From Acidobacteriaceae bacterium (GTDB taxonomy: Bacteria; Acidobacteriota; Terriglobia; Terriglobales; Acidobacteriaceae), in contig PLFY01000051.1 of assembly GCA_003138365.1 (NCBI GenBank), positions 1 to 48,639 of the forward strand: a stretch of DNA of 48,639 nt. Direction: 5' to 3'. This document shows positions 4,982-30,278 of the stretch, piece by piece (position 1 is the stretch's first letter; each line of letters opens with the position of its first letter). The position numbers were made by a program, and so were the translations under genes. The notes under the pieces are model-generated. The model was not told the DNA's origin. It saw only the letters and a list, made by a program, of their open reading frames with translations, and ran no database searches.

Positions 4982-5308
4982 TCACTGCTTATCCCTGTGC
5001 GCGATCACATAATCCTTGATGCTGTCGTAGACTTCGCCGCTCACCACGCCCTTGTCCAGCAGGTCTTGCTTGGTGCGGTAGGGCCTGAAGCGAACAACGC
5101 GTCCGGCCCAACTGCGCGTCATGCCGGGAACTTTCAACAACTCCTCCACAGTCGCATGATTGATGTCGATCCGCGCTTCAGGCGGAGGGGCCGTCGCAGA
5201 TGTTTTGGGTACACCACGGGTATCGCGATCCTGGTTCTGGGCCATCCCGGCCAGACACAGGCACAGAATCGCCATCGCTCCAACCGCGAATCGTCTTCCA
5301 GCTCGCAC
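4982..5308 (-). CDS. Secreted helix-hairpin-helix (ComEA-like) protein
   Basis: Small protein of about 108 aa with a GTG start at 5308, chosen because it gives a good signal peptide (VRAGRRFAVGAMAILCLCLAG). The frame stays open upstream to 5419, and ATG 5275 with a GGAG site is an alternative. The mature part is one ComEA/HHH-type domain: INHATVEELLKVPGMTRSWA, then VVRFRPYRTKQDLLDKGVVS. In ComEA this fold binds DNA, but many short secreted homologues have no known role. It is convergent with the efflux pump and divergent from the his operon, and the his promoter lies just upstream of its start. Confidence 0.75.
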   Translation of the reverse strand: MRAGRRFAVGAMAILCLCLAGMAQNQDRDTRGVPKTSATAPPPEARIDINHATVEELLKVPGMTRSWAGRVVRFRPYRTKQDLLDKGVVSGEVYDSIKDYVIAHRDKQ

Positions 5309-5370
5309 GGCTCCATTCTCTGCCTCGCCCCGCGCCAGCCGCAAGCAGATCCCAGCAGCAAGCAAAGCAT

Positions 5371-5400
5371 TTGACACGCCATGGGGTTTTCCCTTACGTT
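5371..5400 (+). promoter_or_regulatory. Candidate promoter of the his operon
   Basis: A perfect -35 hexamer TTGACA (5371-5376) is followed 17-18 bp later by a weak -10 (TTACGT or TACGTT, 5394-5400). Transcription would start around 5406, only a few bases before the leader-peptide ATG at 5409, so the leader would be almost leaderless. The -35 match is seen directly. Its use is inferred from position. Confidence 0.45.
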
Positions 5401-5408
5401 TTAAACAG

Positions 5409-5486
5409 ATGCAGAGCAACCGCCATCACGGTCACCACCACCATCATGGGATCCCCATGCCGGCGGACTGCCATGGCCTGAACTAG
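5409..5486 (+). CDS. hisL: Histidine operon leader peptide
   Basis: A 25-codon frame beginning ATG CAG AGC and ending TAG at 5484-5486. The peptide is MQSNRHHGHHHHHGI followed by PMPADCHGLN. Seven of the eight codons at 5424-5447 are His, and an eighth is at 5472, which is far from chance for a GC-rich intergenic stretch. It lies directly upstream of a terminator hairpin (5515-5551) and of hisI. In enterobacteria, scarcity of charged tRNA-His stalls ribosomes on such a run and prevents termination. The same mechanism is inferred here from the layout. Confidence 0.85.
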   Translation: MQSNRHHGHHHHHGIPMPADCHGLN

Positions 5487-5551
5487 ACGGCCAGAGAGAT
5501 CTAAGAATCATCCAAGCCCGCCGGCGACCTTCGCTGGCGGGCTTTTTCACG
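5459..5551 (+). promoter_or_regulatory. his attenuator: antiterminator arms and terminator hairpin
   Basis: Terminator: a GC-rich stem at 5515-5526 pairs with 5532-5546 and runs into TTTTTC. Antiterminator: GCCGGCGG (5459-5466) is exactly complementary to CCGCCGGC (5518-5525), the left arm of the terminator. GGCGG (5462-5466) can alternatively pair with CCGCC (5420-5424), which overlaps the start of the His run. A ribosome stalled on the His codons would cover 5420-5424, free 5459-5466 and favour the antiterminator. The pairings are seen directly. The switching is inferred. Confidence 0.75.
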
Positions 5552-5591
5552 CCTCAAGCAAAATCTCAACCCAAGACTAGGACAAACGGCA

Positions 5592-5954
5592 ATGATCGAT
5601 TTCGACAAAATGGATGGCCTGGCGCCCGGCATCGTACAGGACGCGCACACAGGAGAGGTGCTGATGCTCGGTTTTCTAAACCCCATCAGCTATGCCAAAA
5701 CGCTGGAGACCGGCTTTGTAACCTTCTGGAGCCGCACCCGCCAAAAGCTGTGGATGAAAGGCGAAACCAGCGGCAACCGCCTCCGCGTAATCTCTGCCGC
5801 AACCGATTGCGACAACGATACCCTTCTGTTTAGGGTAGAGGTCGAGGGCGACGGCCTGGTGTGCCACGAGGGCACGGTCAGTTGCTTTACCAAACCGCTG
5901 CCGGTCGGCACTGCCAACCAGGAAGCAGACAAGAAAGAGGAAGCCCGTGGCTAA
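5592..5954 (+). CDS. hisI: Phosphoribosyl-AMP cyclohydrolase
   Basis: Step 3 of histidine biosynthesis: opens the purine ring of phosphoribosyl-AMP. At 120 aa it is a stand-alone HisI domain. The metal-site cysteines sit in [17 protein letters not shown] and TVSCF, and the conserved block [20 protein letters not shown] is intact. There is no fused HisE (phosphoribosyl-ATP pyrophosphatase) domain, unlike the bifunctional HisIE of enterobacteria. First structural gene after the attenuator, about 41 bp past its T-run. Its 3' end overlaps hisG by 8 bp. Placing hisI at the head of the operon is unusual compared with the enterobacterial order. Confidence 0.95.
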
Positions 5955-6822
5955 CAAACTCAGACTCGGCATTCCCAAGGGCAGCCTGCAGGATGCCACC
6001 ATCGCTCTCTTCAAGCGGGCCGGCTGGAATATTTACGCAGACGGCCGTTCCTACTTTCCCTCCATCGACGACAGCGAGATCGAGTGCATGTTGATTCGCG
6101 CGCAGGAGATGGCGCGCTACGTCGACCACGGTGTCCTCGACGCCGGTCTCACCGGCATCGACTGGGTTGTCGAGAGCGGCCTCGACGTTACCAGCATTAT
6201 TTCGCTCACCTATGCCAAGCAGAGCCGGCGCAAGGTGCGCTGGGTGCTGGCCGTTCCCGAGGGGAGCGGATTCGAGAAGGCCGAAGACCTCGAGGGGAAA
6301 ATCGTTGCCACCGAACTCGTCGAGGTAAGCAAGCGTTATTTCGCTGCCAAGGGCGTGAACGTCAAGGTCGAATTCAGTTGGGGCGCAACGGAAGTCAAGC
6401 CGCCCACTTTGGCCGACGCGATCGTCGAGGTCACTGAAACGGGCAGCTCGCTCAAGGCCAACCACCTCAAGATCATCGACACGGTGATGGAGAGCGAGAC
6501 CCATCTCATCGCCGGCAAGGCCACGCTCGCCGACGAGTGGAAGCGGCAGAAGATTGACCAGATTGCTCTCATGCTGCGCGGCGCAATCGATGCGCAATCG
6601 CAGGTGGGCTTGATGCTCAACGTCAAGCGCGAGGACCTGGAAACAGTCCTGTCCGTGCTGCCTGCATTGAACTCGCCTACAGTCTCGCAGTTGAGCAACT
6701 CGGAGTGGGTCGCGGTCAACACGATCGTGGATGAGCGCGTTGCACGCGATGTGATTCCCAGGCTCAAGGCGGCCAGGGCCACCGGTATCGTCGAATATCC
6801 GCTCAATAAAGTTGTTCTGTAA
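5947..6822 (+). CDS. hisG: ATP phosphoribosyltransferase, long form
   Basis: First committed step of histidine synthesis: ATP + PRPP to phosphoribosyl-ATP. GTG start inside the end of hisI (8-bp overlap), giving 291 aa. The N-terminal catalytic half begins [19 protein letters not shown] and contains the conserved [12 protein letters not shown] region and [18 protein letters not shown]. The C-terminal part of about 75 residues matches the HisG_C regulatory domain ([20 protein letters not shown]), so this is the hexameric, histidine-inhibited long form and should not need a HisZ partner. Feedback inhibition is expected from the family. Confidence 0.96.
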
Positions 6823-6833
6823 ATCGAAGGCAG

Positions 6834-8114
6834 ATGATGAAGCTGATCCGAACCAAAGGCCGTGGCGCAAAGGAAGCAGCGGAAGCGCTAGCCGCACTCG
6901 AGCGACGCGGCGGCGCGGCGCTCGACGCCGTGCTGCCCGCCGTCAAGCGCATTGTTGCCGGCGTGCGCAAGCAGGGTGACCGCGCCCTGCTCCGTTACGC
7001 AACCCAATTCGATGGGCTTGCGAGCACGAATGCATTGCGCGTGACGCAGCGGGAAATGGCCGCTTCATGGGAGGCCATCGATCCCGCGCTGCGCGATGCC
7101 TTGTCTACGGCGGCCGAGCAGATTCGCGGCTTTGCTCAGCGGCAATTGCCAGCCTCATGGAATGCCACGCCGATTGCCGGCCTCACCACAGGCCAGCTTG
7201 TGCGCCCGCTCGGCTCGGTCGGCTGCTACGTGCCCAGCGGCCGTCATCCTCTGCCTTCAACGTTGCTCATGACGGCCATTCCAGCGCAGGTTGCAGGTGT
7301 GGCGCGTGTTGCCGTTGTCTCTGCCAAGCCCGCGCCGGAGACACTCGCTGCCGCGCATCTACTCGGCATTACGGAGTTCTATCGGCTCGGAGGAGCGCAT
7401 GCCGTAGCCGCACTGGCCTACGGAACCGCAAGCGTCGAGCAGGTGGACAAGATCGTCGGCCCCGGCAATCTCTATGTCACCGCGGCCAAGCGTCTTGTAG
7501 CTTTCGATTGTGCCATCGACATGCTCGCCGGCCCCACCGAGATCGTCGTGACAAGCGAGCGCGGCAACGCGGCAGACATTGCTTCCGACCTGGTGGCGCA
7601 GGCGGAGCATGATCCCGAGGCGCTGGCCATCTTGATCACCACGCGCGTTGATCTTGCCAAAGAGGTCATAGCGGAAGCAAAGCTGCGCAGCCGCAACAAT
7701 GCCGTTGCGCGCCAGGCTCTCGATCGCAACGGCCTCGTCATCGTGGTTGCCAATATGGAAGAAGCGCGGCAGATCACCAATCGTCTCGCGCCCGAACACC
7801 TGACCGTGGATGCGCACAGCGATCTCGATTGGGTCGAGAACGTGGGCTCGGTGTTTGTGGGCCGCTGGTCCGCGCAGCCCATGGGCGATTACATCTCCGG
7901 ACCCAATCACACACTGCCTACTGGCGGCATGGCCCGTGTGCGCGGCGGCTTGAGCGTGAACGACTTCGTCAAGATCATCACCGTGCAAGAGTACACTGCA
8001 CAGGGCATCCGCTCACTTGGGCCGCCCGCTGCTCTCTTGGCCGAAGCCGAAGGGCTCGTTGGTCACGCCGGCGCCATTCGTGTTCGCTTGCAAAGAAGGA
8101 GGTCCCGTGGCTGA
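6834..8114 (+). CDS. hisD: Histidinol dehydrogenase
   Basis: Zinc enzyme for the last two steps, L-histidinol to L-histidine with two NAD. 426 aa, normal length. Conserved blocks include PLGSVGCYVPSGRHPLPST, GGAHAVAALAYGTASVEQVD, KIVGPGNLYVTAAKR and the catalytic pair Glu321-His322 in APEHLTVDA. The HTLPTGGMARVRGGLSVNDF block near the C-terminus is typical. ATG start 12 bp after the hisG stop. The last codons overlap the hisC start by 8 bp, and the hisC ribosome-binding site (AAGGAGG) lies inside hisD. Confidence 0.96.
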   Translation: MMKLIRTKGRGAKEAAEALAALERRGGAALDAVLPAVKRIVAGVRKQGDRALLRYATQFDGLASTNALRVTQREMAASWEAIDPALRDALSTAAEQIRGFAQRQLPASWNATPIAGLTTGQLVRPLGSVGCYVPSGRHPLPSTLLMTAIPAQVAGVARVAVVSAKPAPETLAAAHLLGITEFYRLGGAHAVAALAYGTASVEQVDKIVGPGNLYVTAAKRLVAFDCAIDMLAGPTEIVVTSERGNAADIASDLVAQAEHDPEALAILITTRVDLAKEVIAEAKLRSRNNAVARQALDRNGLVIVVANMEEARQITNRLAPEHLTVDAHSDLDWVENVGSVFVGRWSAQPMGDYISGPNHTLPTGGMARVRGGLSVNDFVKIITVQEYTAQGIRSLGPPAALLAEAEGLVGHAGAIRVRLQRRRSRG

Positions 8115-9204
8115 TACCGCTGTAGCAGCGAAACCAATCCCGCGCGCCCGCATACAGGCGATGAAGGAATATCACCCGCCGCTGGGCAGCCGCGATGCGC
8201 TGCGCCTGGACTTCAACGAGAACACGCTTGCCTGTTCCCCCAAGGTGCGCGAAGCGCTTGGCCGCATCTCTGCCGGCGCTCTTACGCGCTACCCCGAGCG
8301 CGAGCCCGTGGAAGCCATCGTAGCAGCGCATCTCGTTCTCGCCGCCGCGCAGGTGGCTCTTACGAATGGCGTGGACGAAGCTATTCATGTGCTCTTTGAG
8401 ACCTTCCTCGAAGAAGGCGACGAGTTGTTGCTGCCTGTGCCGACCTACACGATGTATGAGGTCTACGCATCGGCGACGGATGCGCGCGTAGTTGCGGTGC
8501 AAGCCGCCGACGATCTGCGATTTCCGTTCGAGCGCCTCCTCGACGCCATTACCCCGCGCACGAAGATCATCGCCATCGCCAATCCCAACAGCCCTTCTGG
8601 CAGCGTGGCCTCTCAAGGCCAACTCATCGAAATTGCAAAGCGAGCGCCGCAAGCAGTCGTGCTGGTGGATGAGGCGTACTTTCACTTCCATGGCGAGACC
8701 GTAATTGACTTGATCGGCGAGGTGCCAAATCTGATTGTTGCGCGGACCTTCTCGAAGGCATACGGACTCGCCGGATTGCGCCTCGGCCTGCTCGCGGGTC
8801 CTGTGGAGTTGATGCGCTGGGTGCGCCGCGTGCTTTCTCCTTACAGCGTGAACTCGCTGGCGCTGGCCTGCCTGCCGCCCGCGCTCGAAGACACTGCGTA
8901 TCTCGATTGGTACGTGAACGAAGTGCTTGCAGCGCGCCTCGAATTCGAAGCCGCTCTCGATGCGGCCAGATTGCGCCGCTGGCCCAGTCGAGCCAACTTT
9001 ATTCTCGTTGACATCGGCCCTCAACATGCGCAGTTTGTGCGCCTCATGCGCGCCGCGGACGTGCTGGTTCGCGACCGCTCCAGCGACTCCGGCTGCGATG
9101 GACGCGTGCGCATCACCATTGGAACGCGAGAGCAGATGCGGCAGGCCATTCTTGCTCTCAATCAAGCTGTGGCGGAATTGAACCTTGGAGGACGTGCACA
9201 ATGA
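8107..9204 (+). CDS. hisC: Histidinol-phosphate aminotransferase
   Basis: PLP enzyme converting imidazole-acetol phosphate and glutamate to histidinol phosphate. The GTG start at 8107 is chosen because AAGGAGG sits 5-6 bp upstream. A longer in-frame extension exists but has no homology. 365 aa. Fold-type I features: [14 protein letters not shown] near the N-terminus, the NPNSPSG block, VDEAYFHF with the PLP-contacting Asp, and the Schiff-base Lys217 in [14 protein letters not shown]. It sits between hisD and hisB with overlaps at both ends, which supports HisC over a generic aminotransferase. Confidence 0.93.
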
Positions 9205-9830
9205 CAACCAGGAAGAAGGCTGAATCCGCCATCGAGTCGAAGCCGCGCACTGCAATCCTCGAGCGCAACACCGCTGAAACGCGCATCGCGATCCATCTCA
9301 CCATCGAAGGTCGCGGCCAATACAAAATCGCGACCGGCATTCGCTTCTTCGATCACATGCTGGAGCTGTTCACGCGTCACGGCGCATTCGATCTGGAACT
9401 CAAGTGCGACGGAGACCTGGATGTGGACCAGCACCACACCGTCGAGGATGTGGGCATTGCGCTCGGCGAAGCCTTCGACCGCGCCCTTGGCGACAAGCGC
9501 GGCATCCTGCGCGCCGGATATTTCCTTATGCCCATGGACGAGACGCTCGCGATTGCAGCCGTAGACTTGAGCGGCCGCGCCGCCTTCGCTGTCGAAACCA
9601 AAGTACGCACGCGGCTGGTCGGCGATCTGCAAACCGAACTCGTCACGGATTTCTTTGAGGGATTCGCCCGCGGCGCCCGCGCCAATGTTCACGTAAAGAC
9701 GATGTACGGACGCTCGAATCATCACAAGATCGAGGCCATCTTCAAAGCCTTCGCGCGCGCCTTGCGCGTGGCCTGCTCGCGCGACAAACAACTGGCCGGA
9801 ATGCTGCCCTCAACAAAAGGACTGTTGTGA
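9201..9830 (+). CDS. hisB: Imidazoleglycerol-phosphate dehydratase
   Basis: Dehydrates imidazole glycerol phosphate to imidazole-acetol phosphate. 209 aa, monofunctional: the histidinol-phosphatase domain that E. coli HisB carries is absent, so that phosphatase must be encoded elsewhere. The metal-binding His motifs are visible as [27 protein letters not shown] and [16 protein letters not shown]. The ATG overlaps the hisC stop by 4 bp (ATGA). A short Lys/Arg-rich N-terminal extension precedes the usual start of the fold ([14 protein letters not shown]). Confidence 0.95.
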
Positions 9831-10444
9831 TGCGCGTAACCGTGATCGATTACAAGGCGGGCAACCTGACCTCGGTGCTGAAGGCGCTGCGTCATCTGGG
9901 CGCGGAGGCTGAGGTGACGGACGGCGACCTTGCGCCCGTTGAAGCAGCGGAGCGCATGGTGCTGCCGGGCGTGGGCCACTTCGCGGCCACTCAGCGGCTC
10001 GACGCGACTGGGCTCACGCCCGCAATTCGTGCAGCCATCGCGCGCGGCGTTCCCTTTCTCGGCATCTGCGTTGGCATGCAGTGGCTCTACGCGGGCTCAA
10101 GCGAAGCGCCGTCGCAGCCTGGACTCGCGCACTTCCCCGAGCATTGCACGCGCTTCTCCGAGAGCCGCGAAAAAGTCCCGCACGTAGGCTGGAATTCGCT
10201 CGAAGTGCGTCTCGGCTCGCGGCTGCTGGCCGGCGTCGAGCCCGGCGAGTTTGTCTATTTTACGCATTCCTACAAGGCTCCAGTTACATCTGATACTGCT
10301 GCGATCACGCAATACATCGAGCCGTTCGCGTCAGCCGTGGAGCGTGGCAACGTGATGGGCGTTCAGTTTCATCCGGAGAAGTCCGGCGCGACCGGCCTGA
10401 AGATTCTTGGCAATTTCCTCTCGTGGGAAGGGGCTTCATGCTGA
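9830..10444 (+). CDS. hisH: Imidazole glycerol phosphate synthase, glutaminase subunit
   Basis: Class I glutamine amidotransferase that supplies ammonia to HisF. ATG at 9830 overlaps the hisB stop by one base (TGATG). GTG at 9827 is an alternative in the same frame. 204 aa. The catalytic triad is visible: Cys80 in GICVGMQW, and His181/Glu183 in VQFHPEKSG. The [20 protein letters not shown] start and the LPGVGHF oxyanion-region block are conserved. It overlaps hisF by 7 bp, consistent with translational coupling of two subunits of one complex. Confidence 0.95.
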
Positions 10445-11217
10445 CCAAGCGAATCATCGCGTGCCTCGATGTGCACGGTGGTCGTGTTGTGAAGGGCGTG
10501 CAGTTCGTCGACCTCATTGATGCGGGCGATCCGGCTACGCAGGCCGCGCGCCACGCTCGCGAGGGCGCGGACGAAATTGTGCTGCTCGACATTACCGCGA
10601 CGCACGAGGGCCGAGCAACGCTGCTCGACACCGTGCGCCGGACAGCGAGGGAATTGTTTGTGCCCTTCGCGGTTGGCGGCGGCATCCGTTCGGCCGACGA
10701 TGCGGCGCAAGTCTTCGATGCTGGCGCGGACAAGGTGAGCGTGAACTCAGCGGCGCTGGCCAACCCCATGTTGATCGACGCCATCGGTCGCAGTTTCGGC
10801 GCGCAGGCCGTCGTCGTCGCCATTGACGCGCGGCGCGATCCCCAGGCTGCCGATCCGATCCGCGACGCTCAGGTGTTTGTGCAGGGCGGGCGCAAGCCGG
10901 CCGGCCGGCGCGTAGTCGAATGGGCGCGCGAGGCTGAAGCCCGCGGCGCCGGCGAGATTCTGCTCACGTCGATGGACTCCGACGGAATGCGCACGGGCTT
11001 CGATTGCGAACTGACCGCGGCGGTGAGTGAAGCGGTCGGCATTCCCGTTATTGCCTCCGGCGGCGCTGGAACTGTTGGCCACTTCACCGATGTATTCGGG
11101 CGTGGCAAGGCCGATGCAGCACTCGCGGCGAGCATCTTTCACTTCGGCATATCGAGCGCGCGTGCGCTCAAGGAAGAGCTGGCCAAAGCCGGCGTCTCCG
11201 TGAGGTTGCCATGCTGA
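10438..11217 (+). CDS. hisF: Imidazole glycerol phosphate synthase, cyclase subunit
   Basis: TIM-barrel partner of HisH that forms imidazole glycerol phosphate and AICAR from PRFAR. ATG at 10438 inside the end of hisH. 259 aa. The catalytic aspartates are Asp11 ([10 protein letters not shown]) and Asp130 (VVVAIDARR). Phosphate-binding loops are visible in [13 protein letters not shown] and [11 protein letters not shown]. The usual IIPCLDV has Ala in place of Pro. Here hisF precedes hisA, whereas most enterobacterial-type operons have hisA first. Confidence 0.95.
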
Positions 11218-11888
11218 TTCCTTCCATCGATTTGCTGGGCGGCCGCATTGTTCAGTTAGTGCAAGGCGAAAAACTGCGCCTGGCTTTTGATGACTTTGAA
11301 TACTGGATTGAAAAGTTTTCCAAGTTTCCTTTAGTCCAGTTGATCGACCTCGACGCAGCCATGCGCCAGGGCGACAATTCAGATCTTGTCGCGCGGATTG
11401 CAAAGCGGCTGCCCGTCCAGGCGGGCGGCGGCATTCACTCCATCGATCGCGCGCGGCAGGTGCTCGACGCCGGTGCAAGGCGCGTCATCATTGGCTCCGC
11501 GTTGTTCTCTGAGCAAGGCGCCGTCCATACCAAATTCGCCGCCGAACTGGCCGCCAGCGTGGGCGTGGAGCGTGTGGTGGCCGGCATCGACACAAAAAAT
11601 GGAAAGATTGCCGTGAAGGGTTGGAAGGCGCAGGTTGCCCTCACGCCCGACGAAGCGATTCCGCAACTCGAGGCCTACGCCGGCACATTTCTTTACACGC
11701 ACGTAGACGGCGAGGGACTGATGCAGGGCTTCCCCATCGAGACGGCTGCGCGCTTGCGCAAGCTCACACAAAAGAAACTCATCGTAGCCGGCGGCATCCG
11801 CAGTCAGCCTGAAGTGGATGCGCTGGATGCGCTGGGCGTCGATGCGGTGGTGGGCATGGCGGTTTACACGGAGCTGCTCGCGGTCTGA
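11211..11888 (+). CDS. hisA: ProFAR isomerase (HisA), divergent short form
   Basis: Amadori isomerase converting ProFAR to PRFAR. 225 aa, slightly shorter than the usual 240-245. Catalytic aspartates Asp7 (PSIDLLGG) and Asp127 (VAGIDTKNG) are present, as are the phosphate loops [12 protein letters not shown] and [12 protein letters not shown]. The stretch after strand 1 ([20 protein letters not shown]) differs clearly from the standard D-P-x-x-x-A form, so this belongs to a divergent branch. It overlaps hisF by 7 bp and ends the operon. No hisE or histidinol-phosphatase gene follows. Confidence 0.88.
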
Positions 11889-12001: not shown

Positions 12002-13174
12002 ATGGCGAAGAAGCAGAGCGGAATACGGTTGGCAAAACGGCTGGACGAAACTGGATTCTCTGGTATTGTGCAAATCCGCGACAAGGTGATGGAACTGCGC
12101 GCGGAGGGTCTCCAGGTTCATGCGATGAACGGGGGCGAGCCGTTCTTTGAGACGCCCGGCGACATCAAGTACGCGGCCATCAAGGCGCTCACTGAGAACC
12201 AGACGCACTATCCTCCGTCTTCCGGCCTGTTGCCCTTGCGCAAGGCGCTGACGGAGAAGTTGGCGGCCAAGAACGGCATCCACGTGACCGCCGACGAAGT
12301 GATCGCCACCGTGGGCGCTTCGCAGGGATTGTATGCGGCCTTTCAGAGCGTGCTCGATCCCGGCGACGACGCGCTAGTCTTCTCGCCTTACTGGACGCCT
12401 ATCCGCGACCTGGTGACCGGGGCGCAGGCGCGGCCATTGCAGGTGGCCACCATCAGCGCGCGCCGCAACGGCATCCGGAATACTTTGGAGCAGTTCTCCA
12501 CGCCCCAGACGCGGGCCATCTACTACAACACCCCGCAGAATCCGAGCGGCGTAGTCTTTATGCGCGCCGAGGCGGAAGAGGTTGCCGCGTTCGCCATTGA
12601 GCGCGATTTGATCGTCATTGCCGACGAGGCCTACGAGGATCTGGTCTATGACGGGGAGCACGTTTCCATTGCGTCGCTGCCCGGCATGGCGGAACGGACC
12701 ATCACCTGCTTCACTTTCTCGAAGACCTATGCAATGACCGGCTGGCGCGCAGGCTACGCAGTGGCCAAAGAACCGTTCATCACCGCGCTGCGGAAGATCG
12801 TGCTCTACTCCACCAACGGCGTCGCCACGCCGGTGCAGTATGCGATGATCCAGGCGCTCACAACGCACGAGACCGAGATCGCCCGGCTCCGCGAAGAGTA
12901 TCGCAAGCGGCGCGATCTGCTGGTGGCCGGCCTGAATGAAGTTGGCCTGGCGTGCGCGCCGCCGGCTGGCGCATTCTATGCTTTCCCCAACGCGGAAAAG
13001 ATTCACAAGGTCAGCCGCACGGCTGCGCAGATCCTGCTCGATAAGGCGCACATCGCCACCGTACCGGGTTCGGTCTTTGGCGCCCAGGGCGAGGGCCATT
13101 TGCGCTTCAGCTACGCAGTGACCATGGATGAGATCGAAGACTGCGTGGAGGCATTGCGCGCGTTCTTCGCGTAG
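12002..13174 (+). CDS. Class I/II pyridoxal-phosphate aminotransferase
   Basis: 390 aa fold-type I aminotransferase, aspartate-aminotransferase-like subgroup. Start chosen for the AAGGAAACGG site just upstream. Seen: the substrate/PLP block AMNGGEPFFETP, YYNTPQNPSGVV, the Asp in VIADEAYEDLVYDG, the Schiff-base Lys241 in FSKTYAMTGWRAGY, and the carboxylate-binding Arg in GHLRFSYAVTMDEIE. It follows the his operon by 113 bp but has its own leader with a palindrome, so co-transcription is uncertain. The substrate cannot be fixed from sequence. Confidence 0.85.
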   Translation: MAKKQSGIRLAKRLDETGFSGIVQIRDKVMELRAEGLQVHAMNGGEPFFETPGDIKYAAIKALTENQTHYPPSSGLLPLRKALTEKLAAKNGIHVTADEVIATVGASQGLYAAFQSVLDPGDDALVFSPYWTPIRDLVTGAQARPLQVATISARRNGIRNTLEQFSTPQTRAIYYNTPQNPSGVVFMRAEAEEVAAFAIERDLIVIADEAYEDLVYDGEHVSIASLPGMAERTITCFTFSKTYAMTGWRAGYAVAKEPFITALRKIVLYSTNGVATPVQYAMIQALTTHETEIARLREEYRKRRDLLVAGLNEVGLACAPPAGAFYAFPNAEKIHKVSRTAAQILLDKAHIATVPGSVFGAQGEGHLRFSYAVTMDEIEDCVEALRAFFA

Positions 13175-30141: not shown

Positions 30142-30187
30142 AGAACTCACGCTGCGAATCGAGGAAGAGGGCCGTTCGGCTTCGAAA

Positions 30188-30260
30188 ACTTCCCACGCCG
30201 GTATTATCCGGATCGGGTTCTAGGGTATTTCTCAGCCCCACTTCGTGGAGCACCCCTGTT
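30188..30260 (-). ncRNA. TPP (thiamine pyrophosphate) riboswitch, Thi-box
   Basis: Read on the minus strand the region has, in order, GGGGTGC, a short P3-type stem (CCAC/GTGG), GGCTGAGA, ACCCTAGAACCCGATCCGG, ATAATACCGGCG and TGGGAAG. These match the conserved Thi-box consensus almost exactly, including the pyrimidine-sensing CTGAGA and the pyrophosphate-sensing CCGGATAAT..CCGG elements. It ends about 80 nt before the ATG of the TonB receptor and should lower expression of the receptor-kinase-transporter operon when TPP is plentiful. Confidence 0.95.
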
Positions 30261-30278
30261 TCAATGTTCCGATTGAAA

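Follow-up and report, generated by a model that had tools for sequence, protein, structure and literature searches.

A probable histidine attenuator with a predicted near-leaderless start before the his operon in Acidobacteriota

Introduction

Does the short, histidine-rich reading frame just before the his genes of an Acidobacteriaceae bacterium control their transcription, and if so, how does a ribosome begin to translate it? To address this, we analysed the window, which is the whole 48,639-nucleotide stretch of DNA in which the element lies (assembly GCA_003138365.1, contig PLFY01000051.1), and followed up an earlier note that had read the region as a classical histidine attenuator. Judged from sequence, the feature is very probably a ribosome-mediated transcription attenuator for histidine; this reading is carried by the parts themselves and their conservation, by two competing RNA pairings that share one segment, and by the spacing of the promoter.

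Results

A histidine-rich reading frame stands before a his operon

The assembly that holds the window comprises 4.78 Mb and is 93% complete, and the closest named contigs encoding HisI belong to Acidobacteriaceae, including Terracidiphilus and Granulicella. The first structural gene is hisI (5592-5954, forward strand), recognized by a match above the cut-off to the NCBIfam phosphoribosyl-AMP cyclohydrolase profile. It is followed on the same strand by hisG, hisD, hisC, hisB, hisH, hisF and hisA, in that order (5947-11888), all assigned by NCBIfam profile matches, with hisC and hisA being best hits whose scores fall below the curated cut-offs. No hisE is present in the operon (5592-11888), and a search of the 93% complete genome with TIGR03188, which we take to be the hisE family, gave no match, while the control search was positive in 13 of 14 genomes; another enzyme may perform this step. 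Downstream, about 110 nucleotides beyond hisA, lies an aminotransferase class I/II gene (12002-13171, forward strand), which may be part of the operon because a simple scan called neither promoter nor terminator in the gap. Elsewhere in the window, a TPP riboswitch (30173-30267, reverse strand, 68.3 bits) is the sole Rfam family to score above its gathering threshold.

The leader reading frame (5409-5486, forward strand) consists of 25 sense codons and a TAG stop, and would encode MQSNRHHGHHHHHGIPMPADCHGLN. Histidine is specified by codons 6, 7, 9-13 and 22, so that codons 6-13 hold seven histidines in eight and the frame holds eight in total, just as the earlier note had counted. Such clustering, in a short reading frame, of codons for the amino acid that the operon makes is the first mark of an attenuator. 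At least seven histidines within eight codons would arise by chance at about 3e-11 per position, assuming a histidine frequency of 2.3%, but conservation is the stronger argument for the leader.

The leader is conserved within and probably beyond the window's class

To examine conservation, we gathered 30 loci at hisG, 19 further stretches, 80 named loci and 29 loci from the phylum, and 126 distinct regions were left once duplicates had been dropped, together with loci that had under 260 nucleotides upstream or no hisI start. A His-rich leader precedes hisI in 120 of these (118 with an ATG start and two, L015 and L155, with GTG), most of them being close relatives rather than independent cases. 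In an earlier pass with a 330-nucleotide window, a leader was found in 97 of 100 regions; in L086 and L104 the histidine run was visible and its start was cut off. Fifteen of the loci with leaders belong to other families of the order or class. A leader of the same kind is present in cultured relatives, among them Terracidiphilus gabretensis S55, Occallatibacter savannae AB23, Silvibacterium bohemicum S15 and strain AB60. In addition, nine loci labelled only as 'same phylum' (L147-L155) have His-rich leaders, and from this label we take them to lie outside the window's class.

The earlier note held that homologous upstream regions lacking the run or the pairing would speak against its reading. 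The run is kept in 120 of the 126 regions, and the pairing of the antiterminator is kept as well (see below), but there are exceptions. Specifically, six of the 126 regions have no His-rich leader (L042 and L156-L160): in L042, a hisI-hisG locus, another gene abuts hisI, and in L156-L160 the flank examined showed no hisG, with L158 located at a contig edge. Two further hisI-hisG loci, L194 and L195, which are labelled 'same phylum', are likewise taken to lie outside the class and belong to one family, have no leader in the approximately 760-790 nucleotides upstream.

Among 20 further stretches upstream of hisI or hisG, a script gave a His-rich short reading frame in ten (L197, L200, L201, L203, L205, L207-L210 and L213) and none in the other ten. 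The frame in L197 looks like chance; in L203 and L208 the leaderless spacing was not fitted when inspected by eye, and among the loci of other architecture the terminators of L200, L201, L207 and L209 were absent or weak by script. In L205, from another class, two consecutive His-rich short frames, each followed by a terminator-like hairpin, lie upstream of a distant hisG; these are perhaps two attenuators in tandem.

A conserved promoter predicts a start at or near the leader ATG

The candidate promoter of the window (5371-5400, forward strand), recognized from sequence and by scanning, has a -35 element TTGACA (5371-5376), an 18-nucleotide spacer and a -10 element TACGTT (5395-5400) that ends 8 nucleotides before the leader ATG. 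To ask how general this spacing is, we scored sigma-70-like promoters from -100 to +40 of each leader without regard to distance and took the top one. In 98 of 118 leaders its -10 element falls 8 or 9 nucleotides before the ATG, and in 110 the distance is 6-11 nucleotides; a strong promoter (score of at least 8) stands at 6-11 nucleotides in 108 of 118 leaders, compared with 11 of 2360 shuffles. By eye, eight of the nine other-class loci also have a TAnnnT box 8-10 nucleotides upstream, L152 being the exception.

Anti-Shine-Dalgarno pairing is absent before the leader. Across the 118 leaders, its energy has a median of -0.2 in front of the leader, compared with -3.3 in front of hisI, and reaches -4.5 or lower in nine and 46 cases, respectively. 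In 18 of 97 leaders an in-frame stop directly precedes the start codon, which excludes a longer reading frame there.

In Streptomyces lividans, the part of PMC8079986 drawn on here places the -10 element on average 6.3 nucleotides from the transcription start; if this distance applies, the 5′ end would lie about 1-4 nucleotides before the leader ATG. Leaderless messages are those whose transcript starts 0-3 nucleotides before the start codon and that have no Shine-Dalgarno site, and the conserved promoter spacing and the lack of a Shine-Dalgarno site are compatible with such a start. Within the phylum, PMC3160421 puts the predicted share of such genes at 13.3% in three Acidobacteria genomes. 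The suggestion that the leader peptide might be translated from a nearly leaderless message is supported, in that the promoter predicts a start within a few nucleotides of the ATG across relatives. By the same prediction, transcripts would not begin downstream of 5486, which the earlier note had named as a finding that would count against its reading.

An alternative is that the attenuator is correctly identified and is transcribed from a promoter farther upstream, giving it an ordinary 5′ UTR and a leader peptide that is not leaderless. A strict rule-based scan of 5200-5700 indeed reported no promoter, presumably because TACGTT, a weak -10 element, matches TATAAT at only three of six positions. 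We nevertheless consider this alternative unlikely, as it leaves unexplained both the position of the best promoter across the leaders, far above what shuffles give, and the lack of anti-Shine-Dalgarno pairing before the leader where hisI has it.

The leader RNA is predicted to form mutually exclusive structures

The fold of the leader RNA contains a predicted intrinsic terminator (5514-5547, forward strand), in which arms E (5514-5527) and F (5531-5544) form a GC-rich stem of 14 base pairs followed by a T run; a terminator between the leader frame and the first gene is a second mark of an attenuator, found here by folding, by a search of the related leaders for hairpin-plus-T sites and by conservation of E:F. 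The gene upstream of the leader, which encodes a helix-hairpin-helix domain, is divergent, ruling out the hairpin as a terminator of that neighbour; it would therefore act on the leader transcript. Just after the histidine run, segment B (GCCGGCGG, 5459-5466) is exactly complementary over 8 nucleotides to CCGCCGGC (5518-5525) within the left arm of the terminator, and in the minimum free energy fold CCGCC at the start of the run (segment A, 5420-5424) pairs with GGCGG (5462-5466) inside B. Both pairings agree with what the earlier note had proposed, and the folding that it called for also returns the terminator hairpin. A further hairpin, C:D (5474-5493), is formed by TGGCC (5474-5478) and GGCCA (5489-5493) and encloses the stop codon of the leader frame.

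Folded in full, the leader forms A:B, C:D and the terminator and lies 3.8 standard deviations below shuffles, none of 200 being as stable. When the stretch beyond a ribosome stalled on the run is folded without F, it forms B:E with C:D inside; masking the 5′ part and removing F thus replaces A:B and the terminator by B:E. The B:E pairing is likewise preferred over A:B with A unmasked, provided that F is absent, and A:B forms as long as E has not been made, so the outcome must depend on the relative timing of ribosome and polymerase.

The 13-mer GGCCAGAGAGATC (5489-5501), which comprises arm D and an unpaired AGAGATC box, is conserved in the genus, occurs exactly in 38 of 62 related leaders and only once in its own genome, and lies partly outside any predicted pairing. 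This raises the possibility that the terminated leader RNA, approximately 140 nucleotides long and carrying the box, also acts on other messages, as the trpL leader RNA of Sinorhizobium meliloti does in trans (PMC7298713, in the excerpt cited). But the box is altered in Granulicella-type leaders and was not seen in the other families shown, and pausing or processing would explain it equally well; we regard a second role in trans as improbable. A polymerase pause at C:D together with the box was a further reading, set aside because the sequence just beyond the hairpin departs from the pause consensus.

Comparative evidence supports the pairings of antiterminator and terminator

For the attenuator itself, whose antiterminator should exclude the terminator, we examined 30 leaders chosen for diversity from 82 within the genus and family. 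Pairing of B with E holds at 97.8%, and in three pairs both partners have changed; versions slid along the alignment are 30-62% paired. None of 500 column shuffles reaches the real value in paired cells, doubly changed cells or covariation score, and in the count of doubly changed pairs 36 of 500 do so, in the count of pair types 46. The pairing of B with the terminator arm is thus kept in homologous regions by compensatory changes, and together with the fold without F this indicates an antiterminator that excludes the terminator, the third mark of an attenuator. For E:F, the paired share is 89.4%, and both partners have changed in five pairs. Specifically, five inner E positions are compatible with B:E in 28-30 of the 30 leaders and with E:F in 19-25, which argues that these bases are maintained by the antiterminator. 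In C:D, pairing holds at 71.3%, with changes of both partners in four pairs.

A:B, by contrast with these, has no covariation in this set, and for arm A we turned to silent sites in the 62 of the 82 leaders that have Arg5-His6. Codon 4 encodes nine different amino acids, yet 61 of the 62 leaders have C at its third base, and 60 of the 62 have CGC as codon 5. The putative protector arm is thus supported by silent-site constraint and by the fold, but not by covariation. Folding energies rank within the best 5 of 100 shuffles for B:E in 77 of 96 leaders and for A:B in ten of 96; energy alone would not have settled the case in such GC-rich RNA.

In four leaders (L013, L077, L084 and L100) the frame is shifted or cut short after the histidine run with B intact as RNA. 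The frame-shifted L013 and L084 count for B acting as RNA: the peptide sequence is lost and B is kept. A script found a hairpin-plus-T site in 96 of 97 leaders, the site of L043 being a hairpin farther downstream and none being found for L045. It found one in nine of the nine other-class loci, that of L147 being doubtful; in these loci the rank of B:E among 200 is 5-12 for four of them and 45-84 for the other five.

That the leader controls hisI translation or RNA processing instead of transcription, with a hairpin that is no working terminator, is highly improbable: actinobacterial leader peptides without terminators exist (PMC1262725, in part) and the strict scan of 5200-5700 missed the terminator too, presumably because the T run lies partly inside the stem, but the 14-base-pair GC-rich stem with its T's, the changes on both sides of E:F and the near-universal hairpin-plus-T site all point to termination.

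Discussion

A model for histidine-dependent attenuation

For the preferred reading, transcription attenuation, we infer the start site, translation, stalling, read-through and histidine response. Transcription would start at the leader ATG or a few bases from it, and a ribosome would load without a Shine-Dalgarno site. With enough charged His-tRNA, the ribosome would reach the stop codon, A:B and E:F would form, and transcription would end ahead of hisI. A shortage of charged His-tRNA would instead make the ribosome stall on the histidine run and cover A, leaving B free to pair with E as it emerges, with the stop-codon hairpin nested inside; no terminator would then form and the his operon would be transcribed.

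A bolder idea, which we offer tentatively and think may well not hold, is that leaderless initiation is itself a working part of the switch. Ribosomes would load directly at the exposed ATG once the end of the RNA appears, which would set the timing between ribosome and polymerase without a Shine-Dalgarno site, and Acidobacteriota within and beyond the window's class would have retained this design despite turnover of the RNA sequence. If so, his expression would respond not only to charged His-tRNA but also to how many ribosomes capable of leaderless initiation are available.

These results have implications for the phylum. The attenuator offers a testable regulator of an essential pathway, and approximately 100 aligned natural variants are now at hand that combine predicted leaderless initiation with attenuation, relatives within Acidobacteriota keeping the leader design while its letters change. 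Scripted searches upstream of leuA, ilvB and trpE in the same genome and eight relatives gave no convincing Leu-, Ile/Val- or Trp-rich reading frame, a weak negative in that leuA, ilvB and trpE need not be the genes that open their operons; a few weak candidates were seen (L161, L164, L184, L187, L189 and L190).

Comparison with known attenuators

Similarity to the enterobacterial hisL leader (Rfam RF00514, His_leader), whose arrangement the earlier note saw here with a different sequence, is one of mechanism and not of layout. Both have a run of seven histidines (E. coli MTRVQFKHHHHHHHPD), competing hairpins and a terminator before the his operon. In contrast, the sequence differs, the layout here is A:B, B:E and E:F with an extra stop-codon hairpin, the first gene is hisI instead of hisG, and the presumed -10 element of E. 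coli hisL (TAGGTT) lies, by eye, 38 nucleotides before the ATG as opposed to 8. The window scores 34.7 bits against His_leader, below the gathering score of 49 (the E. coli leader, as a control, scores 131.6 bits), so the element is not filed in that family although it appears to work like hisL.

Ribosome-mediated attenuation is established, as are leaderless leader peptides in Corynebacterium, Streptomyces and Sinorhizobium, according to the portions of the literature cited here. In C. glutamicum ilvBNC and S. lividans ilvL and leuL2, leader transcripts start at or one nucleotide from the start codon with a terminator behind (excerpts of PMC11857589 and PMC8079986), but these serve other amino acids in another phylum; for the C. 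glutamicum his operons, the cited part of PMC3896937 proposes T-box or translational control and no His leader peptide before hisD. In S. meliloti trpL (rnTrpL), the attenuated RNA begins directly at the start codon ATG of the leader frame, and the system differs in its amino acid, tryptophan, in belonging to Alphaproteobacteria and in its demonstrated action in trans (PMC7298713, same excerpt). Sequence-based predictions of leaders with His codons beyond Proteobacteria and Actinobacteria also exist for bacilli, where they stand in front of hisS and hisZ (PMC2965389); these precede tRNA-synthetase-type genes in Firmicutes, and the same source states that, for phyla such as Acidobacteria, hardly any predicted attenuator had an associated function. 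In the open-licence PMC literature we found no report of such an attenuator for Acidobacteria or Acidobacteriota. Leader-peptide attenuation, described in these partial sources for Proteobacteria, Actinobacteria and some Firmicutes, would thus extend to an abundant and little-studied soil phylum, and what is new is the predicted his attenuator of this design spread through Acidobacteriota, distinguished from the known systems by its putative leaderless start and its spread across the phylum.
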